From: Beroe forskalii
Taxonomy: Eukaryota; Ctenophora; Nuda; Beroida; Beroidae
NCBI GenBank assembly: GCA_011033025.1
Contig: WFMF01000063.1
Span: 62,001 to 126,000 of the forward strand
Length of the DNA: 64,000 nt
Direction of reading: 5' to 3'
The stretch's first letter is position 1. Every line of letters begins with the position of its first letter. Of this stretch, positions 28,355 to 64,000 are shown one piece after another. The notes beneath the pieces were generated by a model, which saw only the letters and a program-made list of their open reading frames with translations, did not search any database and was not told the DNA's origin. Position numbers and translations under genes: made by a program.

Positions 28355-30050
28355 CAGAAGATGATTCCGTGGGTTGGATGCAAATTGGGAAAATCCGCGC
28401 GCGCTCGATATATGCGATTCTGTAGAATGAAGTTGGGAAAATTTTACCAATTTCTTAAAGTTGACTCAGACTGATTGAATATGATTGAATAGACGGATTA
28501 GAATATCATTGAATAGATGATGGTTGATTGGTAAAGCCACTTTAAGGAGACTTAGCTGTTTTAAGATGCCAGATTGAGGCAAAATACCGAAAAAATTTAA
28601 TATTATTTCCCAGTTTGATTTGTATCGACTAAAATTTATTCAAAGACACCAGAAGAAAAGGTCCGTATATTTCCAGCCAAAATTGAATCATTTCACTTTT
28701 AAAACTCGGGCTGAATATTGCTTTATTTTTCCCAAAAATGGATGCATCCAAGTGCGAAATTTGGTCTGAGAAAAAGTGGATGCATTTTCCCAAAATTGGG
28801 AAAATGGCTTTTTAGCCTGTTTAATGCACTGAAAATGATTCCAAATGGTTGGAATATGTTTTTATAGATGATACACGAGTCCTGGGACCGTTTTTAGAAA
28901 ATTTGGCCATCACTGAGAGCCGATATGGGCGAAAAAGGCCGAAAAAAGCAGAAAATTAAAATTGCTCAAAATTGATTTCTATCGACTCAAATGTGTTTAT
29001 AAACATCCTAGAAGTCATTCTGCGTCGTTTTCGGGTGAAAATTGCTTTATTTTCCCAAAATGGATGCATCAAGTGAAATTTGGTCTGAGAAAAAGTGGAT
29101 GCATTTTCCCAAAATTGGGAAAATGGCTTTTTAGCCTGTTTAATGCACTGAAAATGATTCCAAATGGTTGAATATGTTTGTATAGATGATACACGAGTCC
29201 TAGGACCGTTTTGGAAAATTTGGCCATCACTGAGGGCCAATATGGGCGAAAAAGGCCGAAAAAAAGCCGAAATTAAAATTGCCAAATTGATTTCTATCGA
29301 CTCAAATGTGTTTATAAACATCTAGAAGTCATTCTGCGTCGTTTTCCGGGTGAAATTGCTTTATTTTCCCAAAAATGGATGCATCAAGTGCGAAATTTGG
29401 TCTGAGAAAAAGTGGATGCATTTTCCCAAAATTGGGAAAATGGCTTTTTAGCCTGTTTAATGCACTGAAATGATTCCAAATGGTTGGAATATGTTTGTAT
29501 AGATGATACACGAGTCCTGGACCGTTTTTGAAAAATTTGGCCATCTGAGAGCCGATATGGGCGAAAAGGCCGAAAAAAGCCGAAATTAAAATTGCTCCAA
29601 ATTGATTTCTATCGACTCAAATGTGTTTAAAACATCCTAGAAGTCATTTGCGTCCTTTCAGGTGAAAATTGCTTTATTTTCCCAGAAATGGATGCATCCA
29701 AGTGCGAAATTTGGTCTGAGAAAAGTGGATGCATTTTCCCAAAATTGAGAAAATGGCTTTTTTGAGCCTGTTTAATGCACTGAAAATGATTCCAAATGGT
29801 TGGAATATGTTTGTATAGATGATACACGAGTCCTAGGACCGTTTTGAAAATTTGGCCATCACTGAGAGCCGATAAGGGCGAAAAAAAGCCGAAAAGCCGA
29901 AATTAAAATTGCTCAAAATTGATTTCTATCGACTCAAATGTGTTTATAAACATCCTAGAAGTCATTCTGCGTCATTTCAGGTTGAAATTAACTATTTTTC
30001 CCAAAAATGGATGCATCAAGTGCCGAAATTGGTCTGAGAAAAGTGCAATG
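28355..30050. mobile_element. fold-back satellite element, subfamily I (left part)
   Basis: Starts with CAGAAGATGATTCCGTGGG then GGATGCAAATTGGGAAAAT and a CG-alternating block, the same end layout as elements A and B. Inside are about 4.5 tandem units of about 315 bp. Phase markers ATCGACTCAAATG lie at 28981, 29295, 29611 and 29928, with a more divergent first unit near 28624. Each unit holds TGGATGCATC, GTGGATGCATTTTCCC with its mirror GGGAAAATGG, and a GGGCGAAAAAGGCCGAAAA tract. The right end runs into the poor-quality stretch and is not seen. No coding capacity. Confidence 0.75.
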
Positions 30051-31650
30051 AGGGCCTTTAATATCTTCAATGAATCTTTTTGGCTATAAACGGGGAATTC
30101 AATGAAATGATCCGTGGGGAAATTAAAAAAATCTTCTTTTAACCTTTTTAAAAAGTTTGATAACAAGTCCGTCTTTATCAAGTCACCCTGTTCACATTTC
30201 CCCAAACCCTTTCAAAATTTTTCTTTTTCGGGGGCCCGGATTAAAAATACATAAAAAAGATTTGCCCACCAAAACCCTTTCTGGTTTTGGGCCCCAGAAA
30301 TACCCTTTAAAGGGGGTAAATCAAGAACTCCATCCCAAAGTTCCCCCCCGCAAAAAGTTTTTTAAAGGGGATCAAATAAATCTCCTCCCCCCAGTTCAAC
30401 AAGATCTAAATTTCCCCCCAAGAATTTTGATTAGTCCCTTTTTCTTTTTTTTTGGGCCCAAAAAATTTCCCCTTCCCCATTTGATCGGGTTTTGGTTCTC
30501 TATTAAAGATGGTTTCCAGCAAATTCTCATCATAAGCACGCTAAAACCCCCGGGGCCTCCCATCATTCATAAGAAACCAACATTCATCCTTAAATTTTTA
30601 ATGGGTGTCTACCCTTAATTCCTTTTCCTTTTATTTTTTCCAAAATACTACTCAAAAAAATTATTTTTTTTTTTTAATGCATGGGGTTTACTTTGGATTC
30701 CCTGGTCCTAATGGGGTTTTTTGTCTTAAATTCCAAAAAGGGGTTAACTTTAAAATTTTTAAACCCAAAATTTTTGACCCGAAAGATATTGCGCTGTTTG
30801 GAATTCCCTAATTTAAAGTCTAAAGGGAAATTTTTTTAAAAATTTTAAAATTTAAATTTTAAAAAGGCATTTTATACAAATATACACCGGCTCAGATTTT
30901 AAAGGGGATAAAGTTGATAAATGATAATGTGATAAGGTGATAAAAAACAGGGGGTGGGTTTGAAGCAAGTGACGGGGGCCCAGTGGGGATTACCAACAGT
31001 AGGGCCACAGGGGCAAAAAAGGAGAAAAATTTAAAAAAAGGGGGGGGAAGGGGTTGAGGGGTAAAAGGGTGCAGAAGAAAGGGAACCCCTTGACTCGAAC
31101 GGGATTAGGACCAGAACACAATCGGGGGCGTTGGGTGCTGGGGATGAAGCTGATAAAGGTTTTTTTTAAAGGGTCCCAACCCCCAAAACAAGATGAAGGG
31201 ATAAGACAAAATAAAGGGGCAATGGAGCCCCAAAAGGGCCGATGAAGCTGGGGAATGATGAGGGGAGTTCTGGGGAAATAAAGGGTTCAGGGGGACTGCG
31301 GGAAAGGGGGAAAAAAGGAAGAAGAAAAAAGAAGGAGAGTTGACCTCCCATGCCTCCATAAGCTGATTGCAAAACAGACCGGGGGGGCACCCTTCCCACA
31401 AAAATATGTGGCAGGTGGCTGGATCACCGGAAGGTCGGAAAACACCCCTCCGCCCACTCAGCCATCTGGGACCCAAAAACCGAGTGGGTTTTGGACCCGT
31501 TTTGTTAAGGAAAAAAAGAGGGTTAAAGGGAAAATTGTGGTCGGTAAGGGTTAGATTACGGGATTTGGTGTTGACATTTTTTTGCCCGGGCATTTTTGGA
31601 AAACCCTTTTTAAATTCCGGGTCGATTTCTATGTCCCTGATTTGCTGTTG
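30050..31650. other. low-quality sequence, homopolymer-inflated
   Basis: Base composition and texture change abruptly: runs of G, C, T and A of 4-12 are packed everywhere, both strands are full of unrelated short open frames, and the repeat units of the preceding element lose their register. This reads like an uncorrected assembly end or join rather than biology. I call no genes in it. Confidence 0.7.
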
Positions 31651-31699
31651 ATTGTTGATTTTGGGTTGGTGTCGGGGTTTAATTTGTTTTTGTCTTTGA

Positions 31700-34600
31700 T
31701 ACCATCCATGGATAGGTTAGGTTTGTTGTGAAGCTCTGAGCAGAGAGGTATTTCTGCATGACTGTCTGCTGGGCATGGCGAGAGGCTTCATCCTCAACTT
31801 GCAAGCCACGCGATTTTCGATCGAGCAGCTACAGATTCGATGAAACAGGTCTTAGAGTGCCCACCGGTTTCAATAGAAGCCCAGTGCACTGTGGCGAATC
31901 GCGAGGACATCTTCTATCTTCAAATGATCGAAATTGGTCGAGATAGAATGTGATACCATCCTTGACATTTGCAGTCTGCTCGACTGGTCGATGGTATTTT
32001 CCAGGACTGATGATGAAGTGTCCTTGGAGTTTGCCTACAAAAGTCTGGGAGAGCTTTGTCGGCAAGGGTAGAGTTGATGATGTGAGTTCTGATTGAGAAG
32101 CAGTAATATCTTCTGTGCTGCGTTTATGATCGTTGACTTGATGTTGGTGAACCATGATAGGCCTAGGGATATTTGTTCGTTCATGGCTGCTTTAGCGAAG
32201 TTTGATTATCTAAGTGGATAACTCGGCTTGAAGAATTTGATGCAGAGTTTGAGACTGTTGATGAAAAGTGGGAAATTTCACTGTCTCACCCCAGGCTCCT
32301 ACAGTTGGAGGTGCTGGCCGGATGCCAAGCAGGTACTGTGATGACGTAAGTGAACCTGTTCAGTCCCATTTTGCAATTTTGGTTAGGCAGAGGTTGATAT
32401 TCTATCTCTTTGATATAGGCAAGAGTTGAGGTGCTTGATGATAGGGAAGTGTGGGGAGCCAGACTTCACAGCCATAGGTCAGGATGGGGCTGATAAGGGA
32501 GCTGAATAACTGGTCATGCTTTGGGATTGATGAACCTTCTGTCGACAGTGCCCCTAAGAGAAGTAAGCACTCCAGCCCTTTTTGTATAGGACTCTACTGC
32601 TTGACTAAACTTGCCGTTACTGCTAATGATGACACCCAGATAACAGTAAGATGCCACAAGCTCGATTTCACTACCATTCATCAATGGCCTCCATGAGCTG
32701 TGAGGATAGTCAGGGCGTCTGCCATTTAACACCATGAACTTGGTCTTAGAGATGTTCACTTCAAGACCCCAGGCATTGCAATAATTTTCAATGACAGAAA
32801 GCTGCTTCTGGAGGGAATCTGTGTCCAGAGCAAGAATAACTAAGTCATCAGCCCAGGCAAGGTGTGTCACTGTAAGTCCTGATAGTGATGGACAGTTGAC
32901 TGGCAGTTCGTTAAGAAGGTTTGAGAGTTTTAGGAAATAAACTTTGAATAGCTCTGGGCTGAGAGGGTGACCTTGCTCCGTACCTTTTAGAGATGTCAAA
33001 AGCTTTGCTCAGTCGATTGTTGATTTTGATGTGACCACTGGAGTTACTGTACATGTTTTTGATAATATTGAAGAACCCTCCATTAATGCCATAGCAAGTT
33101 TGAAAAGAAGTGCCTGCCGGCACACAAGGTCGAAAAGCCTTTCTCAAGTCGATGAAGACATAGACTTTTGCTTGGACTTTCTGTACTTCTCCATGATAGT
33201 CAGGAGGGTAAGAAATATGATCGTTGCACTGGCTACCTTTCTTAAAACCTGCTTGATTAGGTGGGTCAGGGAAGTTAGTGTCTCGATGGGCAATGAGCCT
33301 GTTCAGCAGCATAGATGATAGAAGTTTGCCGAGGCAGCTGCACACAGCAATGGCTCTGTAGTTATCTGATTGTCAATGCTACCTTTCTTGTGCAGGGGGT
33401 GATAACACTTTGGTTCCAGACATAGACACCTAGTTTGAGACAAGTGTTGAAGAGACTTAGTAGAAGATGCTGGACTTTGCTGTTGAATCCTTTGATAATT
33501 TCGTTGCTGATGTGATCAAAGGATGATGCTTTGCCAGATTTCAGACCGTTGATGGCAGCAGTCAGTTCATCGATAGTGAAAAGGCTTGTTTAGATCTTTG
33601 TTAGAACATTCGAGTTCGCAGTACAGATGGCATCATTCATGAGGGCCTCTTTTGTTTGGCTGTCCATGGTTGGGTGTTGGTCAGAGTAGAGTTTTGCATA
33701 GAATTCATGGAAGGGATCAAGGTGCTCAGATTCATCAAGTCTGACCTCGTCCTTCTTAGATCGTTTCAGTTTTTTAAAGTCCTTCCATGAGATCACTCTG
33801 CCATTTTTGATTTTGTTGTTCAGATTGCGAAGGAATTTTTCCTTCTTGGAACCAATAATACGATATCCTTTGACGTTGAGGCGGTGGCGATCCTTAATAG
33901 CCTTGTTATCTGGGTTTTTGTCAACAGCACGGACAGATCTTTTCAGAGACGTCTAGCAGAGTGACAGGCAGGGTCAAACCAGGCTTCCATACTTTGGCTT
34001 TGTTGTTTTGTCTGACTTGGTCTTATCAAAACATTCCTGTGATACAGAGTTGATAAGAGTTGAAAACTCAACACATGCCGACTTGGTCTCATCCGTGCTG
34101 GTAGTGATGGATGTGATTTTATCCTGCAGTTCATTGATCTGACTTGCAATGTGTGGTTCATCCAGCATATTTTTGAATCTGTTGAGTGATTCACCTGTAA
34201 GTTTGTACTTAAAAGGTGCTGATTCATAGGTGATGCCACTTTTGAGTCTATTGGGTGGGTCAGATGGAGCTTTTATTCCAAAGCTGGAGAACTACTGGGC
34301 TGTGGTCTGAAAAAATTATGTTCTTCCATTATTAAGGTACTTCACTCTATGCGTGAAGTTGGTTGAGCTAATAAACAGATCAATGACACTGTTTCCATTC
34401 CATTTGAAGCAGGTGTAGTTTCCAGAGGTGTCACCGATTGTACGTGACCATTTAGAACCAGAAGATTCTGTGATCCCGATCAAGTCGAGGAGGGGGCCCT
34501 TATGACTGTTCGTACACTTATCCTTGCTGTTTCTGGAGTGAGGAGATTGGTGCCGTGGCATGGATATCGCTAGAGTCATCCATGCTATCAAGGTCTGTGT

Positions 34601-35680: not shown

Positions 35681-35844
35681 ATTAAATCTAATTAACAATT
35701 TATGTGATTAAATTTATGTAATGTGATCCATGTATTTAATTTGTGTGATGTGACCCCCTTCTTCTTGATTTCTGTAATATAATCCTCTTCTGATTTCATT
35801 GGTGTAATGTGATTTATGTAATGTGATCCCCTTTGATTACTCAG

Positions 35845-39360: not shown

Positions 39361-39598
39361 CTGAGATAAAAAACAACAGGGAGTATTTGCTCAACTGTAA
39401 AATCAGGGAGAATAGTACTAATAACGGTATACGGTAATTTAAACGTGGCTCAATTTGCAGGACACAGTGAATCACTCAACACGGTCTACTAAGACACGTG
39501 TGCGCGGCGCGCCATCAACACGCGCGCCAGTTAAAACGGACACAAAATTTAAGAGGCAAAGTCATTGTATCATTAATTTGTCGTCGCGCGTCACAAAT

Positions 39599-42500
39599 CA
39601 GAAGATGATTCCGTATAGTGGATGCAAATTGTGAAAATGCGCGCGTGCTCACAATGACGGCCTGGCTGAGATGAAATTGTGAAAATTTTCACATTTTGCC
39701 AAAACTGGATGAGAATGGCTGAAATATGTTTGAATAATTGATATAAGTGACCTAAAGTCGTTTTTGGAGTCTTGGTCATTTTTGAGTCGTCGATATAGGC
39801 GAAAGGGTCGAATTTAAAGATTGATCAAATCTGACTTTTCTCGGAGCAAATGCATAGGAGACAGATAGGAAACATTCAGTTTAAACCAAAAACATATTTC
39901 CCCGGGGAGGGATGCATCCATTCCCGAATATTTAGGCGTGTAAAAACGTGGTTGCATTGTCACATTTTCTGTGAAAATGGTTTTAGCTAGTTTTGAGGAC
40001 TGAAAACGTGTTAAAATCGTTTAGACATGCTTGTATAGTGAATACAAGTAACTTAAGATTGTTTTTGAGCAATTATAAAGTTGCTCAAATTTAGAATAAT
40101 TACCTGGTACATGCCCTTATCTAACCGGCCTTCTAGACTTAGAGATTTTGTCCAAAGGGCCGGGCAAGAAAGACCCGGTCAAGGCTTCAAAGTGGGGTCG
40201 GTTGAATTTAAGGCCAGTTATTTCCGTCAAACGAAACTTTTATGACCTCGCTTATACATTGTTTAATAAGACACTTGAACACCATAAAAGATAACATAAC
40301 ACGATAATGCCCTAAATTATCAAATCACACGGGAATTTGTGGACCTTTTGATTCAATTTACTGGATTTAAAATGGATTTAAATGGCTATTTCGGCGTGTG
40401 AAATCATTGGTCTGGAAACCACTTGATAAGTTGATACATTTATTTTGTTCAAAAAGTTATCATAAGATAAATTGTGCGTGGTTCTTGGACCGAAAATGGC
40501 TCGCAAAACCGTGGATGCATTTCACATTTTTTATGAAAATGGTTTTGTGCGTGAAAATGGCTCAGTTAAAAAAGTTATCAGGTACTTAGGATCGTTTTTA
40601 GAAGGCTTGAGAACTTCCGGCCCCTACAAGGCCGAAAAAGGCCCACCCAACTCAAAATACGCTGTTTTTCGCCCGTAAGAATGCATTTTTCACAAAAAAT
40701 TTGAAAATGGTTTTGTGCAAGTTTGAGAGCTGGAAATGTGCAAAAATGGTTCAGACATGATTTAATAGCGAATGCAGTTACTTAGGATCGTTTTTTGGGA
40801 GTTTGAGAAGTTTTGGGCCCCAATATGGCCGAAAAAGGCCCAAAAAGGCCGAAAAAATAAAGTTGCTTAAATTTGATTTTTATCGACTGGAAAGTAATTC
40901 GAGACATCCTAGGAAACATTCTGCGTGGTTTTAGACCGAAATACGCTGTTTTCCGCCGGTGAGGATGCATCCATTTCTGAAAAACGTACCAAAAAGTGGA
41001 TGCATTTTCACAAAAGTGTGAAAATGGTTTTGTGCGAGTTTTGAGGGCTGGAAATGTGTAAAATGGTTCAGACATGATTGTGTAGCGAATGCAAGTTACT
41101 TAGGATCGTTTTGGGAGTTTTGAAGTTTTGGGCCCCAATATGGCCGAAAAAGGCCCAAAAGGCCGAAAAATAAAGTTGCTCTAATTTGGGTTTTATCGAC
41201 TGGAAAGTAATTCTAGACATCCTAGGAAACATTCTGCGTGGTTTTAGACCGAAATACGCTGTTTTCGCCTGTGAGGGATGCATCCATTTCTGAAAAACGG
41301 CCTGTAAAAAGTGGATGCATTTTCACAAAAAGTGTGAAAATGGTTTTGTGCGAGTTTTGAGGGCTGGAAATGTGTAAAAATGGTTCAGACATGATTGTAT
41401 AGCGAATGCAAGTTACTTAGGATCGTTTTTGGGAGTTTTGAGAAGTTTTGGGCAGTCGATAAAAATCAAATTTAAGCAACTTTATTTTTCGGCCTTTTTG
41501 GGCCTTTTTCGGCCATATTGGGATAAGGCCCAAAGGCCGAAAAAATAAAGTTGCTTAAATTTGATTTTTATCGACTGGAAAGTAATTCGAGACATCTAGG
41601 AAACATTCTGCGTGGTTTTAGACCGAAATACGCTGTTTTCCGACTGTGAGGATGCATCCATTTCGAAAAAGGCCTGTAAAAAAGTGGATGCATTTTTTCA
41701 CAAAAGTGTGAAAATGGTTTTGTGCGAGTTTTGAGGGCTGGAAATGTGTAAAAATGGTTCAGACATGATTGTATAGCGAATGCAAGTTGCTTAGGATCGT
41801 TTTTGGGAGATTTGAGAAGTTTTGGGCCCCAATATGGCCGAAAAAGACCCAAAAAGGCCGAAAAATTTGGTTGCTCAAATTTGATTTCTATTACTAATTT
41901 CGGTCCAAAAATTACGCAAAATGTTTCCTAGGATGTCTAGAATTACTTTCCAGTCGATAGAAATCAAATTTGAGCAACTTTATTTTTCGGCCTTTTTGGG
42001 CCTTTTTCGGCCATATTGGGGCCCAAAACTTCTCAAAACTCCCGAAAACGATCCTCAAGAACTTGCATTCGCTATACAATCATGTATGAACCATTTTTAC
42101 GCATTTCCAGCCATCATAACTCGCACAAAACCATTTTCACAAAATATGTGAAAATGCATCCACTTTTTTACAGGCCGTTTTTCAGAAATGGATGCATCCT
42201 CTGCGGAAAACAGCGTATTTCGATTAAAAAACCATCACAAAGAATGTTTCCTAGATGTCTAGAATTACTTTCCAGTCGATAAAAATCAAATTTGAGCAAC
42301 TTTATTTTTCGGCCTTTTTCGGCGGACATATTGGGGCCCAAAACTTCTCAAAACTCCCAAAAACGATCCCAAGTAACTTGCATTCGCTATACAATCGTGT
42401 CTGAACCATTTTTACACATTTCCAGCCCTCAAAACTCGCACAAACCATTTTCACACTTTTGTGAAAATGCATCCACTTTTTACAGGCCGTTTTTCAGAAA

Positions 42501-44452
42501 TGGATGCATCCCTCACAGGCGGAAAACAGCGAATTTCGGTCTAAAAACCACGCAGAATGTTTCCTTGGATCTAGAATTACTTTCCAGTCGATAAAAATCA
42601 AATTAGAGCAACTTTATTTTTCGGCCTTTTTTGGGCCTTTTTCGTATATTGGGGCCCAAAACTTCTCAAAACTCCCAAAAACGATCCTAAGTAACTTGCA
42701 TTCGCTATACAATCATGTCTGAACCATTTTTACACATTTCCAGCCCTCAAAACTCGCACAAAACCATTTTCACACTTTTTGTGAAAATGCATCCACTTTT
42801 TTACAGGCCGTTTTCAGAAATGGATGCATCCCTCACAGGCGGAAAACAGCGTATTTCGGTCTAAAACAACGCAGAATGTTTCCTAGGATGTCTAGAATTA
42901 CTTTCCAGTCGATAAAATCAAATTAGAGCAACTTTATTTTTCGGCCTTTTGGGCCTTTTTTCGGCCATATTGGGGCCCAAAACTTCTCAAAACTCCCAAA
43001 ACGATCCTAAGTAACTTGCATTCGCTATACAATCATGTCTGAACCATTTTTACACATTTCCCGCCCTCAAAACTCTCGCACAAAACCATTTTCACACTTT
43101 TTGTGAAAATGCATCCACTTTTTACAGGCCGTTTTTCAGAAATGGATGCATCCCTCACAGGCGGAAAACAGCGTATTTCGGTCTAAAAACCACGCAGAAT
43201 GTTTCCTTGGATGTCTAGAATTACTTTCCAGTCGATAAAACTCAAATTAGAGCAACTTTATTTTTCGGCCTTTTTGGGCCTTTTTCGGCCATATTGGGGC
43301 CCAAAACTTCTCAAAACTCCCAAAAACGATCCTAAGTAACTTGCATTCGCTATACAATCATGTCTGAACCATTTTACATTTCCAGCCTCAAAACTCGCAC
43401 AAAACCATTTTCACACTTTGTGTGAAAATGCATCCACTTTTTTACAGGCCGTTTTTCAGAAATGGATGCATCCCTCACAGGCGGAAAACAGCGTATTTCG
43501 GTCTAAAAACAACGCAGAATGTTTCCTAGGATGTCTAGAATTACTTTACAGTCGATAAAACTCAAATTAGAGCAACTTTAGTTTTCGGCCTTTTTGGGCC
43601 TTTTTCGAAATGGATGTATATTGGGGCCCAAACTTCTCAAAACTCCCAAAAACGATCCTAAGTAACTTGCATTCGCTATACAATCATGTCTGAACCATTT
43701 TTACACATTTCCAGCCCTCAAAACTCGCACAAAACCATTTTCACACTTTTGTGAAAATGCATCCACCCACACAGGCCGTTTTTCAGAAATGGATGCATCC
43801 CTCACAGGCGGAAAACAGCGTATTTCGGTCTAAAAACCACGCAGAATGTTTCCTAGGATGTCTAGAATTACTTTCCAGTCGATAAAACGCAAATTAGAGC
43901 AACTTTATTTTTCGGCCTTTTTGGGCCTTTTTCGGCCATATTGGGGCCCAAAACTTCTCAAAACTCCCAAAAACGATCCTAAGTAACTTGCATTCGCTAT
44001 ACAATCATGTCTGAACCATTTTACACATTTCCAGCCCTCAAAACTCACAAAACCATTTTCACACTTTTGTGAAAATGCATCCACTTTTTTACAGGCCGTT
44101 TTTCAGAAATGGATGCATCCCTCACAGGCGGAAAACAGCGTATTTCGGTCTAAAAACCACGCAGAATGTTTCCTTGGATGTCTAGAATTACTTTCCAGTC
44201 GATAAAAATCAAATTAGAGCAACTTTATTTTTCGGCCTTTTTGGGCCTTTTTCGGCCATATTGGGGCCCAAAACTTCTCAAAACTCCCAAAAACGATCCT
44301 AAGTAACTTGCATTCGCTATACAATCATGTCTGAACCATTTTTACACATTTCCAGCCCTCAAAACTCGCACAAAACCATTTTCACAAAATATGTGAAAAT
44401 TTTCACATTGCATCCAAGTGCATCCAATTTGCATCCACTTTTACGGAATCAT
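39599..44452. mobile_element. fold-back satellite element A (subfamily II)
   Basis: 4.85 kb bounded by inverted ends: left CAGAAGATGATTCCGTATAG then GTGGATGCAAAT; right the mirror image, ending CCACTTTTACGGAATCAT. A left module of about 1.1 kb (39599-40700) includes a non-satellite block (40085-40470). Then come forward ~320-bp units (CGACTGGAAAGTAATT at 40885, about 41198 and 41572), a local hairpin at 41455-41575, an orientation switch at about 41890, and then about eight reverse units (CCAGTCGAT near 41951, 42271, 42583, 42906, 43228, 43550, 43875 and 44197). Each unit holds a GGATGCATCC palindrome, GTGGATGCATTTTCAC with its mirror, and GGCCGAAAAAGGCCC tracts. No protein coding. No target-site duplication could be fixed. 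Confidence 0.85.
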
Positions 44453-44747
44453 GAACTCTCACAAATACGTTTAAAATTAGTGTGTCAGTGCCAAAAAAAT
44501 ATTGAGTTCTTATCGATGTGACGTAAATGTTTGTAAATAATCTAATACGCGATCTATTATACGCTCGTAGGCCAACTATCGAAAAGTAGGTGAACAAACA
44601 AAAGTGCAAGTTGAAAGTGCTAGGAAAAGATTATCTAGGACATATAACGATAAATAACAAAATAATATCAAGTACAAAATGATATCGATTTTCAGTTCCT
44701 TCGCTCAAATAGAAAAATGCTCTGCCAAAACATACACCCTTAAGAAG

Positions 44748-46108: not shown

Positions 46109-46198
46109 CGAAATAGTTAACTTCGATCTATAGACGGTAATTTATAAATATTAAGAATGCTTATACAAAATCAGACCACCGCACCATGTTAACGGTAG

Positions 46199-49100
46199 TT
46201 AAGTCTTGTGGTATATGGGTCCGAACTTGCTCATGTATGCGGATATGTACAGCTTGACTCGCTGTTTCAGACTGTCTGTAATGTTGAGATCCGAGACGCC
46301 TTTCCGCTGTAGCTCCTTCTCCGTGAGTCCGTGTGTCAACTGAAGTGGTGTAAGAGATTCAGAACGAAGTATTTCTAATTTATTTGGTTGGGATCAGTCT
46401 TTCACTCACTTGGAGAAATACTGAAATTCTTTCAAATACTGAAATTCAGGCACAGGATTTACCGATTTAGTTCAATGCTTCTTAGGGATACATACCTTTC
46501 TAGCAACGTATTTGAAGTCACTGTTGTCCATGATGCGCCCCACTTTGCAATCCACTTTGTTGTATTTGCCCAGGTTGTTGACCACTATCTTTGCAAGTTG
46601 AGACTTGAAGTCAGCGAGTAGTTTCTTAGACGCAGCATCGAGCTCCGGCTCACTTTTCTTGGCAGCAAAACTACTAGTGGACTGAAAAAAGTCGCTGACA
46701 TTAGAAATCATAAACAAGCGAGTTTACATGGTTATCAATGGAGTTATCCAAGTCATCATTAAAACTACAAACTAGAATAGAACTTTAGCAATATTCAATG
46801 ATTACTGTGTGCAACATAGATCAGTCGTAGATCAAAAGAGCTGCGCGCAATTTTTGACCATTTCACCGATCTGTGAATGTCCAATCGATATCATTTGCAT
46901 GGATACAGTTTATGGCATTAGACACCGTCTGTGAAAATTTGAAGCATTTTCAGCCAAAAATGACCACGGTATAGCAGAATGTAGTCAGTTTCGGACCGAA
47001 AGTACTAATTTCGGTCCGAAACTGATCTATGTTGTACAGTGTACACAGTACCTTCTGCTTGACAGGTGACTCGTCCCTCTTCGCTTTCTTGTGAACTGGT
47101 GGCTGAGGTTGCTGCTGGGGAGGTGGCTTCTTCGGAGTGGGGGAGGAGGGGGTTTCCAGCTTCTTCGAGCTGGACGGATCTTCTGCGACAGGAGCATCCC
47201 ACTGCGTTTCCCTGGTATAGTAGAAGATTCATTACCAAATGGTTCAAGGAAATGTCTTGACTATCCTCAAGGTATAAAGCCAACATTTGTCACTATGGTT
47301 GTTCGGATATGTGCCTAGCCTGGCGAACACAGTTGATGTCCTTGCTGAACGGCATGTTATTAAACAAGGAACTGAAGCTGAGAGATTCCGTTCAGTCCGA
47401 TCAGCTATTGTGTCAAATGTTGGTATATACAAAGTGTGTTTATCAACACAACCCCAGATTGACATCATCTCAGAAGCAGGTAATCAAGACATTCGCATTA
47501 TGTGAGATCATGTACATTGCAAAGCATGTACAGTACCCACCTGGTAATAGCATGGTAGTAGTATATCTTGCCGTCGTTATCCTTGGCAGTTCGCCAGTGA
47601 GGTGGCAGTTTCTTGTCTTCTGGTCGGATGGGAGGCGCTGAGGACTGGGCAGCTGACGGCTGTGTCTTGACCGTCGACGACTTCTTTTCAACCTCCGGTT
47701 CTTTGGGCAGTGCTGGTAGAGCTGTCGAGCTTACCCCTGTTCAAATGTGTTAAAATAATGTCACACATGCCATATCAGGGATATTTGCACCAGTGTACGT
47801 GATACTGATTTAACGGTAATCACCAACCAACATGACATTGACATATCAGGATGACTTAGGGGACTTAGATATCCCCTGCTTTAGACTTACCATTGCCAGC
47901 AACGATACACAATTTCATGACATCAATTTGTAGAGAAGGGTTGCATCAAACGCAAAGTTTACACCGATAAAGTTACCTGAAGTCGGTTGAGTGATTTGCT
48001 GGGAAGTTGCCGGCACGGAATCAGATTTGGTGGTAGCTGATGTTCCCAGACTGGTGCCGCCTATGTTGCTAGTAGTGGCCATAGCACCGCCTATTGTAGA
48101 AGGTACCACACCCTGTAGAATGCCAATTGTCAGTGGGGTGGGTTGGAAATATTATCACATGTCATGTTATCCATTATCATGTTATCACATGTCATGTAAT
48201 ATCGGGGCTAAAAAGGTCGATCTTACACGTGCGCACCTGAACGTGTACAATGTACATAACTGCATTTGAGCGTTAAGGTATTCACTCGTTCACCTATTCA
48301 AGTGTTTTGACACGTGTTTAATTCACTCGTACAATCAAATTTAATGGGCCCTACTACGATTCGCAGAAGCACGTAAAATTTTAGGCATGTAGCCTAAAAT
48401 CTGACATGAATGCAAATACGACCCACCGTGCGCGTGAAATTGGACACGATGTTTTGCGTTCTGTACCAGATATATCAACAAAAACTAGCAATACAGAAGA
48501 TGATTCCGTATAGTGGATGCAAATTGTGAAAATGCGCGCGTGCTCACAATGACGACCTGGCTGAAATGAAATTGTGAAAATTTTCACATTTTGCCAAAAC
48601 TGGATGAGAATGGCTGAAATATGTTTGAATAATCGATATAAGTGACCTAAAGTCGTTTTTGGAGTCTTGGTCATTTTTGTGTCGTCGATATAGGCGAAAA
48701 GGGTTGAATTTAAAGATTGATCAAATCTGACTTTTCTCGGAGCAAATGCATAGGAGACAGATAGGAAACATTCAGTTTAAACCAAAACATATTTCCTTGG
48801 GGAGGATGCATCCATTCCCGAATATTTAGGCGTGTAAAAACGTGGTTGCATTTTCAAATTTTCTGTGAAAATGGTTTTAGCTAGTTTTGGGGACTGAAAA
48901 CGTGTTAAAATCGTTTAGACATGCTTGTAAAGTAAATACAAGTAACTTAAGATTGTTTTTGAGCAATTATAAAGTTGCTCAAATTTAGAATAATTACCTG
49001 GTACATGCCCTTATCTAACCGGCCTTCTAGACTTAGAGATTTTTTCCAAAGGGCCGGGCAAGAAAGACCGGTCAAGGCTTCAAAGTGGGGTCGGTTGAAT

Positions 49101-52100
49101 TTAAGGCCAGTTATTTCCGTCAAATGAAACTTTTATGACCTCACTTATACAGTGTTTAATAAGACACTTGAACACTATAAAAGATAACATAACACAATAA
49201 TGCCCTAAATTATCATATCACACGGGAATTTGTGGACCTTTTGATTCAATTTACTGGATTTAAAATGGATATAAATGGCTATTTCGGCGTGTGAAATCAT
49301 TGGTCTGGAAACCACTTGATAAGTTGATACATTTATTTTGTTCAAAAATTTTTGTCCATGGGTTAAAAGTTATCATAAGATAAATTGAGCGTGGTTCTTG
49401 GACCGAAAAGGGCTCGCAAAACCGTGGATGCTTTTCACATTTTTTATGAAAATGGTTTTGTGCGAGAACTGCGTGAAAATGGCTCAGTTAAAAAAATTTA
49501 TAAGAGTATTAGGTACTTAGGATCGTTTTTAGAATGCTTGAGAACTTCCGGCCCCTACGAGGCCGAAAAAGGCCCACCCAACTCAAAATACGCTGTTTTT
49601 CGCCCTTAAGGAATGCATTTTCACAAAAAATTTGAAAATGGTTTTGTGCGAGTTTTGAGAGCTGGAAATGTGTAAAAATGGTTCAGACATGATTGAATAG
49701 CGAATGCAAGTAACTTAGGATCGTTTTTGAGAGTTTTGAGAAGTTTTGGGCCCCAATATGGCCGAAAAAGGCCCAAAAAGGCCGAAAAATAAAGTTGCTC
49801 AAATTTGATTTTATCGACTGAAAAGTAATTCTAGACATCCTAGGAAACATTCTGCGTGGTTTTTAGACCGAAATACGCTGTTTTCCGCCTGTGAGGGATG
49901 CATCCATTTCTGAAAAACGGCCTGTAAAAAAGTGAATGCATTTTCACAAAAAGTGTGAAAATGGTTTTGTGCGAGTTTTGAGGGCTGGAAATGTGTGAAA
50001 ATGGTTCAGACATGATTGTATAGCGAATGCAAGTTACTTAGGATCGTTTTTGGAGTTTTGAGAAGTTTTGGGCTATTATATGGCCGAAAAGGCCGAAAAT
50101 AAAGTTGCTCAAATTTGATTTTTATCGACTGGAAAGTAATTCTAGACATCCTAGGAAACATTCTGCGTGGTTTTAGACCGAAATACGCTGTTTTCCGCCT
50201 GTGAGGGATGCATCCATTTCTGAAAAAACGGCCTGTAAAAAAAAAAGTGGATGCATTTTCACAAAAAGTGTGAAAATGGTTTTATGCGAGTTTTGAGGGC
50301 TGGGAATGTGTAAAATGGTTCAGACATGATTGTATAGCGAATGCAAGTTACTTAGGATCGTTTTTGGGAGTTTTGAGAAGTTTGGGCTAATATGGCCGAA
50401 TAAGGCCCAAAAGCCGAAAAATAAAGTTGCTCAAATTTGATTTTTATCGACTGGAAAGTAATTCTAGACATCCTAGGAAACATTCTGCGTGGTTTTTAGA
50501 CCGAAATACGCTGTTTTCCGCCTGTGAGGGATGCATCCATTTCTGAAAAACGGCCTGTAAAAAAGTGGATGCATTTTCACAAAAAGTGTGAAAATGGTTT
50601 TGTGGGAGTTTTGGGGGCTGGAAATGTGTAAAAATGATTCAGAAATGATTGTATAGCGAATGCAAGTTACTTAGGATCGTTTTTGGGAGTTTTGAGAAGT
50701 TTTGGGCTAATATGGCCGAAAAGGCCCAAAAGGCCGAAAAATAAAGTTGCTCAAATTTGATTTTCATCGACTGGAAAGTAATTCTAGAGATCCTAGAAAC
50801 ATTCTGCGTGGTTTTAGACCGAAATACGCTGTTTTCCGCCTGTGAGGATGCATCCATTTCTGAAAAACGGCCTGTAAAAAAGTGGATGCATTTTCACAAA
50901 AAGTGTGAAAATGGTTTTGTGCGAGTTTTGAGGGCTGGAAAAGTGTAAAAATGGTTCAGACATGATTGTATAGCGAATGCAAGTTACTTAGGATCGTTTT
51001 TGGGAGTTTTGAGAAGTTTTGGGCCCCAATATGGCCGTAAAATGCCCAAAAAGGCCGAAAAATAAAGTTGCTCAAATTTGATTTTCATCGACTGGAAAGT
51101 AATTCTAGAGATCTAGGAAACATTCGTGGTTTTTAGACCGAAATACGCTGTTTTTCCGCCTGTGAGGGATGCATCCATTTCTGAAAAACGGCCTGTAAAA
51201 AAGTGGATGCATTTTCACAAAAAGTGTGAAAATGGTTTTGTGCGAGTTTTTAGGGCTGGAAATGTGTAAAAATGGTTCAGACATGATTGTATAGCGAATG
51301 CAATTTACTCAGGATCGTTTTTGGGAGTTTTCAGAAGTTTTGGGCCCCACTATGGCCGAAAAAGACCCAAAAAGGCCGAAAAAATTTGGTTGCTCAAATT
51401 TGATTTCTATTACTAATTTCGGTCCAAAAACTACGCAGAATGTTTCCTAGGATGTCTAAAATTACTTTCCAGTCGATAGAAATCAAATTTGAGCAACTTA
51501 ATGGGGCCCAAAACTTCTCAAAACTCCCAAAAACGATCCTAAGTAACTTGCATTCGCTATACAATCATTTCTGAATCATTTTTACACATTTCCAGCCCCC
51601 AAAACTCCCACAAAACCATTTTCACACTTTTGTAAAAATGCATCCACTTTTTTTACAGGCCGTTTTTCAGAAATGGATGCATCCTCACAGGCGGAAAACA
51701 GTATTTTGGTCTAAAAACCACGCAGAATGTTTCCTAGGATCTCTAGAATTACTTTCCAGTCGATGAAAATCAAATTTGAGCAACTTTATTTTTCGGCCTT
51801 TTTGGGCCATATTGGGGCCCAAAACTTCTCAAAACTCCCAAAAACGATCCTAAGTAACTTGCATTCGCTACACAATCATGTCTGAACCACTTTTACACAT
51901 TTCCAGCCCTCAAAACTCGCACAAAACCATTTTCACACTTTTTGTGAAAATGCATCCACTTTTTTACAGGCCGTTTTTCAGAAATGGATGCATCCCTCAC
52001 AGGCGGAAAACAGCGTATTTCGGTCTAAAAACCACGCAGAATGTTTCCTAGGATCTCTAGAATTACTTTCCAGTCGATGAAAATCAAATTTGAGCAACTT

Positions 52101-54868
52101 TATTTTTCGGCCTTTTTGGGCCTTTTTCGGCCATATTGGGGCCCAAAACTTCTCAAAACTCCCAAAAACGATCCTAAGTAACTTGCATTCGCTATACAAT
52201 CATGTCTGAACCATTTTTACACATTTCCAGCCCTCAAAACTCGCACAAAACCATTTTCACAAAATATGTGAAAATTTTCACATTGCATCCAAGTGCATCC
52301 AATTTGCATCCACTTTTACGGAATCATAGCCTTTTCCGCCTTTTAACAAAACGTCAATTTGACCGCGTTCTGCGAATTTCTAATTTGAAGTTCACTAAAA
52401 ATTTTCCTCCTCAGCTCTACAGCCTTAAATATTTCGCGAGCGATTGAAGTGAGCCGCCATTAACTAAGTTTTGACCTGAATGACAGTAGGCAGGAATATT
52501 TCCTGGACAGGCTGAGATAACATTACTTGGACAGGCTGAGAGAACATTACCTGGACAGGTTGAGAGAACATTACCTGGACAGGTTGAGAGAATATTACCT
52601 GGACAGGTTGAGAGAACATTACCTGGACAGGCTGAGAGAACATTACCTGGACAGGTTGAGAGAATATTACCTGGACAGGCTGAGATAACATTACTTGGAC
52701 AGGCTGAGAGAACATTACCTGGACAGGTTGAGAGAATATTACCTGGACAGGCTGAGAGAATATTACCTGGACAGGTTGAGAGAACATTACCTGGACAGGC
52801 TGAGAGAACATTACCTGGACAGGCTGAGAGAACATTACCTGGACAGGTTGAAAGAATATTACCTGGACAGGCTGAGAGAATATTACCTGGACAGGTTGAG
52901 AGAATATTACCTGGACAGGCTGAGAGAATATTACCTGGACAGGTTGAGAGAATATTACCTGGACAGGTTGAGAGAATATTACCTGGACAGGTTGAGAGAA
53001 TATTACCTGGACAGGCTGAGAGAACATTACCTGGACAGGCTGAGAGAATATTACCTGGACAGGTTGAGAGAATATTACCTGGACAGGTTGAGAGAACATT
53101 ACCTGGACAGGTTGAGAGAATATTACCTGGACAGGCTGAGAGAATATTACCTGGACAGGCTGAGAGAATATTACCTGGACAGGTTGAGAGAATATTACCT
53201 GGACAGGTTGAGAGAATATTACCTGGACAGGTTGAGAGAATATTACCTGAACAGGTTGAGAGAATATTACCTGGACAGGTTGAGAGAAAATTACCTGGAC
53301 AGGCTGAGAGAATATTACCTGGACAGGTTGAGAGAATATTACCTGGACAGGTTGAGAGAACATTACCTGGACAGGTTGAGAGAATATTACCTGGACAGGT
53401 TGAGAGAATATTACCTGGACAGGCTGAGAGAATATTACCTGGACAGGTTGAGAGAATATTACCTGGACAGGTCGAGAGAATATTACCTGGACAGGTTGAG
53501 AGAATATTACCTGGACAGGTTGAGAGAAGGGAATATTACCTGGACAGGTTGAGAGAATATTACCTGGACAGGCTGAGAGAATATTACCTGGACAGGTTGA
53601 GAGAATATTACCTGGACAGGTTGAGAGAATATTACCTGGACAGGCTGAGAGAAGGGAAGGGGAGCCGTAAGAGCGGCGCCAGGAAGGCTGGGTTCCGGAA
53701 TGCCCTTGTACATGTCGTGCGGCATGTTTGGCAGTGAGAACTGGGAGGCTTGTGCCATCTGAGTCATCCCGTACTGGTGCATGTTGAGGCCGTGAGTAGG
53801 GAGTCTGTGTTGGGGAATGATGGGGTGGGGTACCCCAGCCACACCCCCTCCTGCTGGACGCTGGCTCAGCGAGGTGTCCAGACCTGCCCTGATGTCTGCT
53901 GGAGATTGGTATCTGTACGGCATGTTGCCACCCCACTGATCGAATCGAGGTGGTCGTACCATAGGCTGTCTAGACTTGTGGTCATAAGGCGGTCTCTCGG
54001 ACCGGGTCATGTCCAGAGGAGAGCGGTATCGCATGTGCAAGGGCTGTCGAGGAGGGGGGCCGCCCATATCAGGGAGACCACTCATCAGATGAGTTCGGAT
54101 AGGAGAGTCAAACAAGGCTGTCCGCACCCCCTCACCTTGGTTTCTAGGTTTGAACATGGGCATGGACCCTGCGAACCTTGGAAAGCTGCCCGCGTTCCTT
54201 GGGTTAAAGCCAGGCGGGTAGCGAGGCATTCGGGGAGGAGCGTCCGCTGAGAATGGATCACTTTGACCGCCTGTCAAGAAAGTTGTAGGGCGTGCTTGTC
54301 CGAAGGCAGGAGGAAAATTGTCTGATTTAGGTGGCTCTTTGGCTTCTTTTGGCAATGGGGCCCTTACAATAGGCTCACTTGGCGCTATGGGCTGCTGAGG
54401 GGGTGCCAGCGGCATTGACGGGCTCCTCTGTGGAACTGAGGGAGATGCCACATTGGCATCAGAAGGTACTTTCTGCATCTTGTCTTTAGAAGAACTCCTG
54501 TCTTTGGAAGAACTCCTGTCACGTTTGTCTTTGGAACTCTTTCTCTCCTTTGAAGAGGATCTGCGTTCTTTGCTGCTCCTCCGATCGTCCTTGTCGTCAC
54601 GTGACTTGTCACGTGAGCCACGTGAGAAGCGGGACGAGTACTCGCTAGTCAGACTATCGTAGTCCCTCTTCTGGTCCCTACCGCGATCATACCGCCCTCT
54701 ATCATCCCTTCTATCATCTCTCCTATAGTCCCTCTTGTCTCGCCTGTCATCCCTTCTATCATCCCTGCGGTCATCCCTCCTATCGTCCCTGCGGTCATCC
54801 CTTCGATCCCTATCTGAATCCCACCGACTAGTTCGCTTTTCATCACGCCGAGGCTCATCACGTTTGTC
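46199..54868 (-). CDS. SETD2: SETD2 (H3K36 methyltransferase), C-terminal exons with WW and SRI domains
   Basis: SETD2 trimethylates H3K36 behind elongating RNA polymerase II. Exons seen: about 54868 (into the gap)-53636, 48112-47977, 47738-47541, 47211-47052, 46681-46496 and 46339-46199, phase-consistent. The first is an Arg/Asp/Ser-rich then Pro/Met/Arg-rich exon ([29 protein letters not shown]). The third and fourth hold the WW domain ([20 protein letters not shown], then ETQWDAP). The last two hold the SRI domain ([56 protein letters not shown]), which binds the phosphorylated Pol II CTD. The WW-SRI order identifies the gene. The RD-rich exon is assigned by strand and matching phase across a 5.5-kb intron. 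The AWS/SET catalytic exons lie beyond the gap or outside the window. Confidence 0.85.
46804..47040. mobile_element. MITE-like element in a SETD2 intron
   Basis: Terminal inverted repeats ACTGTGTGCAACATAGATCAGT (46804-46825) and the mirror ACTGATCTATGTTGTACAGT (47021-47040). Inside the right end is a 16-bp perfect-stem hairpin (46985-47023, stem CAGTTTCGGACCGAAA). No coding. Its right end lies about 12 bp from the donor of the WW exon. Confidence 0.75.
48494..52327. mobile_element. fold-back satellite element B (subfamily II), inside a SETD2 intron
   Basis: 3.8 kb, same layout and ends as element A: left CAGAAGATGATTCCGTATAG, right CCACTTTTACGGAATCAT. The left module (48494-49640) is nearly identical to that of A, including the non-satellite block. 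Five forward units follow (CGACTG markers near 49818, 50128, 50448, 50769 and 51089). The switch point lies at about 51400 with the same TACTAATTTCGGTCC string as A, then about three reverse units. Flanking sequence differs from A, so the two are separate insertions of one family. Confidence 0.85.
52494..53658 (-). repeat. 24-bp minisatellite of 5' splice sites at a SETD2 exon end
   Basis: About 48 units. In gene orientation each reads CCTGTCCAG/GTAATATTCT then CTCAA. The first unit overlaps the end of the RD-rich exon (donor at 53636/53635), so almost every unit is a perfect copy of the native donor. 24 bp keeps the reading frame: read through, each unit adds VIFSQPVQ. The opposite strand is also open (YYLDRLRE repeats), a by-product of the period. 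One unit near 53521-53545 still carries the exon's GAGAAGGGA, showing the array grew from the junction. Confidence 0.9.
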
Positions 54869-54968
54869 NNNNNNNNNNNNNNNNNNNNNNNNNNNNNNNN
54901 NNNNNNNNNNNNNNNNNNNNNNNNNNNNNNNNNNNNNNNNNNNNNNNNNNNNNNNNNNNNNNNNNNNN
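54869..54968. other. assembly gap (100 N)
   Basis: Exactly 100 undetermined bases within or at the 5' edge of the RD-rich SETD2 exon, in a GAYMGN-type low-complexity repeat. The true gap size is unknown. Confidence 0.99.
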
Positions 54969-55129
54969 CACCTTCCATAGAAACGCCTAATACTAAGAAT
55001 CACATCACCTGCAAGATACCTATTTGATACTACCAATTTAGAAATACCCATAAAACTATAAAAGGCAATGAGCATACTAACTCTTCCTACTAACTCTTCC
55101 AATTGTAATTGTTTTCATCTTCAACTAAT

Positions 55130-60380: not shown

Positions 60381-61135
60381 GCACTTGTGGAGATCATAAC
60401 AATTACAAAGACTGTTCGCGGATGGTTCCACATGAAGGTAGAGACAAACAACTGCTTCGACACGGTGGAGCTAGGATTCACCCTGAATCCATGCAGTCAG
60501 CTTGAGTGCTGGGATGTGAAACTTTCAACATTATGGGGATATGGTGCAGGTATCCTACGAGAAGATGGGGATCAACCCCCTATTCCGTAGTGCCATCGAG
60601 AAAGTGGAGGGCTATGACAACTGTCCTGTTTGCAATCAAAATCTTGAATTTGGACCATATTCTGAGAACACTCCTGTTCGAGGCTCACATGATCAGGTTC
60701 TACCTACAGGGTCAGATGCCCATCGCTGGGGTATCACTCCCAAAAGGTGTGTAAATTTCATTTCTTACTTTGTTTATTAATTGTTATATAACGCTGCTCC
60801 CTGGAGATGCAGTAAAATATTTTCATTTACATGAATCGCATGAATCGAAATTTGGGAAGGAGGCAACGCGTAGCGCCGTAGCAGCGCCGAGTGACCTGTG
60901 TATTATCAGTCGGCTTTCTATTAATAAGTAACATAGAGTCATTGCTTTATTTCAATTTGATGAATTTTCAGGCAAGTCGCAGCTTTTATACAAGTGGACA
61001 TACTGCACCAACGCATATGGGACGCAGATAGAAAGGCACATGCGTCGGTGCCGCGAGAAGCCGCTGGATTACGACAGTACGAGCCCTCGATACTGGAAAG
61101 ACGTCCACACGGCTAAAGGCAAATGGGGCCCTTAA
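59843..61135 (+). CDS. unrecognised gene built on the tandem module, with Cys/His-rich last exon
   Basis: The most complete module copy opens at 59843 (MAPLHFTPTT) and stays open for 220 codons. Past 60370 the frame changes more than once, and one further exon end at 60746 (LRTLLFEAHMIRFYLQGQMP ... SLPK, donor GTGTGT) joins in phase to 60972-61135 (acceptor TTTTCAG). The last exon encodes KWTYCTNAYGTQIERHMRRC, a possible BED-like or CCHC-type zinc finger, and ends GKWGP. A CPVC pair lies in an overlapping frame at about 60620. Function unknown; the gene model is partial. Confidence 0.4.
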
Positions 61136-61355
61136 CTTATTCATGTGCGTCCTATGTGGCGTTTCACAAAAGAAGAAATAGGTTTGCAGCAGATGGATAT
61201 TGTAGTAGTTCACTGTTCACACATACTATTAGTATCATGTGAGAATGCGCCCTGAATTATTTGAGAACAGCTTAAATTAATATATATGACGAAAATAAAT
61301 TGAAATTAATAAAACGTTAAAATCAAGAAAAGTTGGAATAATAACAATTTTTCAG

Positions 61356-61883
61356 AGACGCCAGCATCCTGTTGGAATGCACCCTGAACTCGAGCTGAAG
61401 GATAAGATAACTGGCTGGTTATCCCTGGATAACATAATGTGGACAGCTCTTCAGAACTTGGTAATTGGCTTTTATCAATAATTATCACTTACTATTCCGA
61501 ACTCAGCAAACCGTTAAACTCTTTTGGCTTTAATTATTGATATCATCGTTTTATGGGTTCGTGGCTGTTCCTTGATTGTTTTTATAGGTAGCTTTTCTAA
61601 TTTCATTCTACTTCTATTCAGGGTTGTAAAGAATTCTATTGCTACCTTGCTGGACCATCGGTTCCGGAAATCAGGACTCTCTGATGTCCCCAACGCAGAG
61701 AGTGCTTCAACGTTACTTTTGGAAAAAGTCACGGACGACATCGTCAATGAAAGTGCTGCTAATACAGAACAGAATACGTCAGTGGTCGAGGAGGACGATG
61801 AATGGGCGACATGCATGCTGATACAGAGCTCATCGGCCAACGATAGATTGGACAGAAAATTTCAGTCAAATGAGTTGATATAG
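61356..61883 (+). pseudogene. hAT/ZBED-like transposase C-terminal fragment
   Basis: Two exon-like pieces. 61356-61460 (acceptor TTTTTCAG, donor GTAATT) encodes HPVGMHPELELKDKITGWL. 61622-61883 (acceptor CTATTCAG) encodes SIATLLDHRFRKSGLSDV, which recalls the ATLLDPRFK...F motif near the C-terminus of hAT/ZBED transposases, then an acidic tail to a TAG stop. The two pieces do not join in phase. It may be a decayed plain DNA transposon or part of a domesticated gene with the zinc-finger exon at 60972. Confidence 0.4.
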
Positions 61884-62180
61884 CAGCATCAACGGAGATT
61901 ATTGCATTCGTTGAAGAGAGGACAATTCTAGCAGAGTGTGATATTTACCGGGGATCAGTGTACGATAATTGCAAGTATTCAAGTTTTATTATTGATTAAA
62001 ATCACGTTTTTGCTCTTCGTCACGTAATAGTCATAGAATTACTGCCCAGATTGAAGATGCGGCAATTTTATCTTTTAGAATGATGAAAATCTAGTATTAG
62101 GTATTACAAGATGTGGGATGGCCCATTATAAAATTCTGGTGATGAATACATGTTGTGAATGGTACAATGAATATCAGTTC
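61884..62180. other. spacer, nothing recognised
   Basis: About 300 bp of ordinary AT-rich sequence up to the left end of the next satellite element. Confidence 0.4.
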
Positions 62181-64000
62181 ATGATTCCGCCGAAGTGGAT
62201 GCAAAGTGGATGCAATGAGACAAATTTGAGACAAATTTGAGACATCGATTTTCTAGCTATAAAAACGGTATTTTGTGACTTCCAATGATACCAAATGGTT
62301 TGTAGGATAGTTTTAAAGGTTGTCCAACCTGTCACGGGCCAGTTTGGTCATTTTGGGCCCAATTATGACCCAAATGGGCCCAAAAAGGCCCAATTTTCAA
62401 ATTGCTCCAATCGATCTGGAAACACTTCCTATTGATTAATAAACATCCTCTGAGGTATTTTACAAAGTTTCACGGCCCTAAAGTGATATTAAGTGCCCCG
62501 CTTCGCATATTCTTGCGTAAAAAGTGGATGCAAATGAGACAAATTTGAGACATTGATATTTTGGCTATACCACCGACTAAATTGGCCCCAGAGAGGTTGG
62601 ACATCCTTTAGAACTGTCCTACAAACTATCTGGTATCATTGGAAGTCACAAAATACCACTTTTATAGCCAGAAAACCAATGTCTCAAATTTGTCTCATTT
62701 GCATCCACTCTTTTACGCAAGAATATGCGAAGTGGATGCAGAGTGTCCGGGGCACTTAACATCAATTTAGGGCCGTAAAACTTTGTAAAATACCTCAGAG
62801 GATGTTTAGAAATCAATTGGAAGTGTTTCCAGATCGATTGGAGCAATTTGATAATTGGGCCTTTAGCCCATTTGGGTCATAACTGGGCCCAAAATGACCA
62901 AACTGGCCCGTGACAGGTTGAATAACCTTAGAACTATCCTACAAAAAACCATTTGGTATCATTGGAAGTCCTAAAATACCGTTTTTATAGCTAGAAAATC
63001 GATGTCTCAAATTTGTCTCATTTGTATCCACTTTTTTGAACAAGAATTTGCGAAGTGGATGCAGAGTGTCCGGGTTACTTAATATCAATTTAGGGCCGAA
63101 AACTTTGTAAAATACCTCGGAGGATGTTTATAAATCGATTGGAAGTGTTTCCAGATCGATTGGAGCAATTTGAAAATTGGGCCTTTTGGGCCCATTTGGG
63201 TCATAACTGGGCCCAAAATGACCAAACCAACATGACAGGTTGGACAACCTTTAAAACTATCCTAAAACCATTTGGTATCATTAGAAGTCACAAAATACCG
63301 CTTTATAGTTTTATAGCCAGAAAACCAATGTCTCAAATTTGTCTCTATTTGCATCCACTTTTTGCAAGAATATGCGAAGTGGATGCAGAGTGTCCGGGCA
63401 CTTAATATCACTTTAGGGCCGTAAAACTTTGTTAAATACCTCGGGAGATGTTTATAAATCAAATGGAAGTGTTTCCAGATCGATTGGAGCAATTTGAAAA
63501 TTGGGCCTTTTTGTGCCCATTTGGGTCATAATTGGGCCCAAATGACCAAACTGGCCCGTGATAGGTTGGAAATCCCTTAGAACTATCGTACAAACCATTT
63601 GGTATCATTGGAAGTCACAAAATATCGCTTTTATAGCCAGAAATTCAATGTCTCAAATTTGTCTCATTTGCATCCACTTTTTACGCAAGAATATGCGTAG
63701 TGGATGCAGTGTCCGGGGAACTCAATATCACTTTAGGGCCGTCAAACCTTGTAAAATACATCGGAAGATGTTTATGAATCAATTGCTCCAATCGATCTGG
63801 AAACACTTCCAATTGATTTCTAAACATCCTCTGAGGTATTTTACAAAGTTTTACGGCCCTAAATTGATGTTAAGTGCCCCGAACACTCTGCATCCACTTC
63901 GCAAATTCTTTACTTGTTCAAAAAAGTGGATGCAAATGAGACAAATTTGAGACATCGATTTTCTGTAAAAACAGTATTTTGTGACTTCCAATGATACAAA
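62181..64000. mobile_element. fold-back satellite element C (subfamily III), cut by the window edge
   Basis: Starts ATGATTCCGCCGAAGTGGAT. Units of about 310-320 bp carry GTGGATGCAAATGAGACAAA, GGCCCAAAAAGGCCCAA, ATTGCTCCAATCGATCTGG and AAACATCCTCTGAGG. Orientation switches at about 62570-62600 (forward to reverse) and again at about 63778 (back to forward). The order of modules inside the unit matches elements A and B although the bases differ. Confidence 0.75.

Follow-up and report, generated by a model that had tools for sequence, protein, structure and literature searches.

The 64-kb window analysed here (positions 62,001 to 126,000 of contig WFMF01000063.1, assembly GCA_011033025.1, from the ctenophore Beroe forskalii) contains four elements with fixed ends whose interiors are built of tandem ~320-bp units (Table 1), to which an earlier sequence-only reading of the same stretch had drawn attention. 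The ends carry a 9-base core, ATGATTCCG, which occurs six times in the window, always at an element end and nowhere else (28361, 39605, 48500 and 62181 on the + strand; 44444 and 52319 on the - strand), against ~0.51 occurrences expected on both strands from a first-order Markov model of the window. GGATGCAAA lies inward of the core, so that the earlier description of all four elements as starting with these two motifs stands, and its spacing distinguishes two types of end. L-type ends (the left ones of elements 1-3), laid out as CAGAAGATGATTCCG, 6 bp, GGATGCAAATTG, have a gap of 6 bp. R-type ends (the right ones of elements 2 and 3, and the one with which element 4 starts), laid out as xAGTTCATGATTCCG, 7 bp, GGATGCAAA with a doubled GGATGCA, have a gap of 7 bp. 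The two types mirror each other over the core and TGGATGCAAA. When the first 70 bp are aligned, the L-type ends of elements 1, 2 and 3 score 70, 74 and 136 against one another, the right ends of elements 2 and 3 score 124 together, the end of element 4 scores 66 and 54 against these two, and pairs of L-type with R-type ends score 18-35. With two types of end, the elements have polarity, and element 4, which starts with an R-type end, is therefore in reverse orientation.

We considered the core as the true terminus of the elements and rejected it, since the homology of the left ends starts 6 bp further out, at CAGAAG, in all three L-type ends, and since element 2 is bracketed by an 8-bp repeat, TCACAAAT, each copy of which stands 6 bp beyond the core. 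Two elements were tested for such a target-site duplication (TSD). Among 200,000 random flank pairs drawn from the window, 0.086% share an 8-mer at equal offset (0-12).

The interiors were dissected by cutting 23 units at GTGGATGCA or its local variant, of which four belong to family A, sixteen to family B and three to family C. Tandem units were confirmed, with lengths as cut of 310-329 bp (~315-325 bp in the sequence-only reading). On the unit strand the modules run in the order GTGGATGCA plus palindrome, GGCC-rich module, TTGCTC..., ACATCCT; the GGCC module had wrongly been placed last. Pairwise identities within a family are 89-99% (means of 93.4% in A, 91.6-97.7% in groups of B and 91.3% in C), and between families they fall to 67-68% (A and B) and 54-55% (either to C). 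Judged by their consensus units, the three families align in one phase: all three family pairs score best at rotation 0 when rotated in 5-bp steps; against 300 dinucleotide shuffles, z is 22.7 for A-B, 12.2 for A-C and 10.7 for B-C. The forward scores are 346, 219 and 200. The best reverse-complement rotations (149.5, 137.5 and 156.5) also exceed the shuffle maxima, yet stay below the forward scores, and such an excess is expected because the sequences are rich in palindromes and A/T runs and the best of many rotations is chosen.

This register is tied to the ends. At all six, one of them on a weak match, it starts 42-65 bp inside the end, phase 1 lying 42 bp from the outer tip in element 4, 48 bp at the left of elements 2 and 3, 51 bp at their right and 65 bp in element 1, as derived from the unit matches nearest each end (in element 1, a single 34-bp match, E 4.5e-4). 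The left-end unit of elements 2 and 3 is diverged, with 71-73% identity to family A. Since these two elements are copies of one another, the register evidence amounts to four independent ends, not six. Arrays lacking fixed ends and starting at random unit positions, the outcome that the sequence-only reading had set against its own proposal, were seen at none of the six ends in the window.

Unit matches cover 79%, 83%, 79% and 95% of elements 1, 2, 3 and 4, respectively, and a blastn search (E up to 1e-4) found 0 bases of unit matches elsewhere in the window. The earlier description of the elements as filled with satellites needs correction to this extent, and the left arms of elements 2 and 3 have a non-unit stretch of ~0.45 kb in common. 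A further correction concerns direction: one arm has its units forward and the other has them in reverse, and the array of element 4 reverses direction twice. To call the elements giant was an overstatement, as the complete ones measure only 3.8-4.9 kb.

Elements 2 and 3 offer a direct comparison. Over the left 1 kb they are 97.4% identical (1039 aligned bases, 47 gap columns) and over the right 108 bp 100%, whereas alignment of their 200-bp flanks gives scores of 18 and 19, close to the shuffle means of 16.9 and 17.1. Near-identical ends between unrelated flanks indicate that the two elements moved as units, and flank scores at shuffle level rule out a segmental duplication. They share a centre of symmetry, at which the forward unit is cut at phase 207 and the reverse unit at phase 267, and the best inverted alignment of their arms spans 1142 bases in element 2 and 854 bases in element 3, both at 96%. 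The array lengths differ, with ~1.2 kb of forward units in element 2 vs ~1.8 kb in element 3, and ~2.5 kb of reverse units vs ~0.9 kb. The right outermost units of the two elements are reciprocal best matches (98.7%). On the left, the outermost unit of element 2 finds its best match in that of element 3 (94.0%), whose own best match is a reverse unit of element 2 (96.2%), so that the relation is not reciprocal. This pattern suggests inheritance of the outer units and turnover of the inner ones, with the right side giving the clearer picture. A search of family B for homogenisation within elements did not show it: group means are 91.6-97.7% for units of one element vs 93.5-96.3% for units of element 2 compared with those of element 3, and the best match lies in the same element for 10 of the 16 B units vs about 7.6 expected from numbers alone.

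Table 1. Features of the four elements (positions in the window).
Feature	Position	Strand	Description
Element 1	28355..30045	+	family A; left end of L-type, CAGAAG-ATGATTCCG; subterminal sequence of ~350 bp
Element 1 units	within 28355..30045	+	one partial and four full ~315-bp units, forward order
Element 2 left TSD	39591..39598	+	TCACAAAT, 8 bp
Element 2	39599..44458	+	family B, complete
Element 2 L end	39599-39613		
Element 2 non-unit stretch, left arm	40068..40510	+	common to element 3; between unit matches
Element 2 forward B units	40678..41891	+	small inverted patch 41453-41522
Element 2 centre of symmetry	41892..41896		junction of forward unit (phase 207) and reverse unit (phase 267)
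Element 2 reverse B units	41897..44400	-	about 7.8 units
Element 2 R end	44444-44452, 44453-44458		core, then GAACTC
Element 2 right TSD	44459..44466	+	TCACAAAT, 8 bp
Element 3	48494..52327	+	family B; both cores present
Element 3 non-unit stretch, left arm	48962..49423	+	
Element 3 forward B units	49610..51410	+	about 5.6 units
Element 3 centre of symmetry	51411..51415		unit phases identical to element 2 centre
Element 3 reverse B units	51416..52275	-	about 2.7 units
Element 4	62175..64000	-	family C; truncated by window end; starts CAGTTC-ATGATTCCG
Element 4 units	62227-62569, 62575-63785, 63781-64000		forward, reverse, forward

The motifs at the ends and in the units match family by family. 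GGATGCA has a density of 7.1 per kb inside the elements vs 0.10 per kb outside, and near it a family-specific motif is present both close to the element ends and in the units. The counts in elements 1, 2, 3, 4 and outside are 12, 0, 0, 0 and 2 for GGGAAAAT, 2, 27, 23, 0 and 4 for GTGAAAAT, and 0, 0, 0, 8 and 1 for GAGACAAATT. This matching is the most telling feature for a putative binding-site role, and gene conversion between ends and units would also produce it.

We consider it very probable that these are non-autonomous fold-back DNA transposons whose inverted arms consist of amplified subterminal cassettes that probably bind a transposase. The fixed ends, the common register and the inverted arms, all shown by the sequence, as are the polarity and the movement as a unit, are best read as the sequence-only reading had proposed, as a family of mobile fold-back elements in whose long inverted arms tandem repeats have expanded. 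A Class II (cut-and-paste) transposase encoded elsewhere would recognise the two distinct ends and move the whole 4-5 kb element, and insertion would leave an 8-bp TSD, seen for one insertion only. The arms would consist of a ~320-bp cassette repeated in inverted arrays; the start of the cassette, GTGGATGCA followed by the family-specific palindromic motif, resembles the subterminal sequence and is a putative transposase-binding site that would have been multiplied inside the arms. The arrays would grow and shrink by unequal exchange or by gap repair after insertion, with the outermost units staying in place.

On this account, the elements would show clearly how a DNA transposon can carry, delimit and spread satellite DNA, with the three diverged families of this window showing corresponding changes in their ends and repeats. 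Such matching makes the retention of a satellite for transposase binding a directly testable question. A bolder proposal, which we hold as rather doubtful, is that almost the whole element is binding cassette and that the ~320-bp unit acts as a selfish module for transposase capture, with a family palindrome that coevolves with the element's ends and with a transposase lineage, so that selection on transposition, and not neutral turnover, would drive the satellite. If this were true, the three diverged, phase-conserved families would represent three lineages of this sort coexisting in one genome.

Elements of this kind are known from flies and a small number of other organisms, and the ones described here would work like Tetris, Galileo and Tm1, which we compare below by means of the relevant portions of the cited sources. 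Tetris, a fold-back transposon of Drosophila virilis, has terminal inverted repeats (TIRs) in which ~220-bp tandem repeats occur in varying number, as well as 8-10 bp TSDs, and in those portions no conserved open reading frame (ORF) is reported and no transposase was found (PMC4079207). As in the present elements, its repeats share a stretch with the outer TIR and its array length varies between copies; in contrast, its unit is ~220 bp vs ~320 bp here (a comparison by description, not by sequence), its outer non-repeated TIR domain reaches up to 866 bp where unit matches here cover 79-95%, and here three diverged families keep one phase and the ends fall into two types (PMC4079207). Galileo, of the P superfamily, is fold-back-like and has ~210-bp internal tandem repeats in one subfamily (PMC3573991), which hold extra transposase-binding sites according to gel shifts with oligonucleotides from the repeats (PMC3688188); by analogy, the repeats described here may also hold extra putative sites. 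It shares with our elements the fold-back plan, the internal tandem repeats and the existence of copies without matching TSD, and differs in its 7-bp TSD (8 bp here), in having two to four repeats per TIR and in that its transposase is known (PMC3573991, PMC3688188). Tm1, a Mutator/Foldback element of root-knot nematodes, has 7-bp terminal motifs that lie outside the inverted repeat and are asymmetric, each end generally carrying its own kind, and these resemble the 6-bp CAGAAG / xAGTTC found here; its internal motif is, however, ~14 bp long, one described copy measures 1080 bp, and its TSD is mostly 9 bp (PMC3169594). A miniature inverted-repeat transposable element with an internal satellite (Scalvenzi and Pollet, cited in PMC12628747) is alike in that a tandem array expands inside a TIR-bounded element, but the citing passage mentions no inverted double arms.

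The sequence-only reading could match the elements to no described family. The kind, as Tetris illustrates, had already been described, and the family itself appears to be new as far as we searched: four end and unit strings were not found in the literature searched, a search that did not cover repeat databases such as Repbase. Literature on Amphimedon and on fold-back elements of sponges likewise listed no such element. Viral contigs gave 0 matches to three DNA patterns and to the protein at 45047-46141. One DNA pattern searched in genome contigs matched 7 bacterial loci, none of which had a blastn match to the window (E up to 1e-3); these pattern matches are therefore attributed to chance, ~5 being expected by a rough estimate.

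Members of the hAT superfamily have an 8-bp TSD and CAG-like termini; the left ends here read CAGAAG and the right end of element 2 reads GAGTTC. Mutator-like elements leave TSDs of 8-11 bp, as given in the portion of PMC6446971 concerned with them. An 8-bp duplication was found in one of the two complete elements. An autonomous copy would be expected to encode a MULE transposase in the Mutator superfamily and a THAP-domain transposase in the P superfamily; neither was seen in the ORFs scanned inside the elements. A Mutator-type assignment is slightly preferred over hAT or P.

Several results weigh against interpreting these elements as transposons. No TSD was found in the flanks of element 3, one of the two complete elements, and its right tip does not match that of element 2: the 6 bp beyond the core, read inwards, are AAGGCT vs GAGTTC. 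No listed ORF of at least 150 amino acids lies inside any element. Of 18 ORFs of at least 80 amino acids in or overlapping the elements, the 10 scanned against Pfam (one of them spanning the left end of element 3) gave a single weak match, to APG12 (E 0.0091), below the cut-off, and no transposase. Finally, the evidence comes from four elements of a single window, which supplied neither an empty site nor an autonomous copy. The mismatch in element 3 would be explained if its tip had been lost or if it had recombined with another copy, by analogy with Galileo, whose copies without matching TSDs are explained as chimeras (PMC3573991), and with Tm1, some copies of which have no terminal motif or TSD (PMC3169594).

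The missing duplication in element 3 and the difference between the two ends would also fit a rolling-circle element of the Helitron/Helentron type with a satellite core, whose insertion leaves no TSD. Long inverted arms are not known to be a defining trait of Helentrons. These elements do carry satellite cores, and their arrays in oyster run in different directions (PMC12628747, in the portion on Helentrons), but element 2 has its 8-bp repeat at equal offset and the ends mirror one another over the core and TGGATGCAAA, and we regard such an origin as improbable. That the arrays are ordinary satellite DNA, dispersed by chance at several loci, would agree with the tandem units being 89-99% identical within a family and with the scatter of satellite-like arrays through a genome, as reported for Crassostrea gigas. 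It is very unlikely in view of the fixed ends and common register at six ends, the shared non-unit stretch, the inverted arms with a common centre and the confinement of unit matches to the elements.

Inverted arrays could also be made locally, by fold-back replication or by assembly error, and not by transposition. Element 4 with its changes of direction, element 2 with its small inverted patch and the poor sequence that follows element 1 all point that way; yet elements 2 and 3 share their switch point, their ends and their left arm between unrelated flanks, which makes a local origin hardly credible, and we retain fold-back transposons as the explanation.

Around the elements, the sequence shows some further irregularities. 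A right end of element 1 was looked for and none was found. Homopolymer runs of at least 4 make up 33% of the stretch directly after it, 30046-30960 (window median 8%), which resembles low-quality base calls, and an assembly problem may have cut the element here. Just upstream of element 1 lies a direct duplication (27270-27575 / 27841-28152, 92% identity), which overlaps and then follows the end of a glycosyltransferase-like ORF; the 685-amino-acid ORF at 25349-27406 joins polysaccharide pyruvyl transferase, Gly_transf_sug and Gb3_synth domains. About 170 bp past the right end of element 3 there is a 24-bp tandem repeat of 48 copies (52494-53653), open in several frames, and an assembly gap of 100 N is at 54869-54968. 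Several related protein-coding-like copies (KTGEQQG..., FLCTFLLIGIYNLL...) occupy 55440-60505; Pfam scans of two regions there gave no match. In all, 20 proteins of the window were scanned with Pfam, two regions twice. The matches include Ku, Beta-Casp/RMMBL, a triose-phosphate transporter, R3H and WW, with sub-threshold matches to the IntS11 C-terminal domain (in the Beta-Casp/RMMBL protein) and to the SRI domain. This set of domains marks the window as eukaryotic. Two RVT_1 matches on the minus strand, at 32514-33372, mark a remnant resembling a long interspersed nuclear element.

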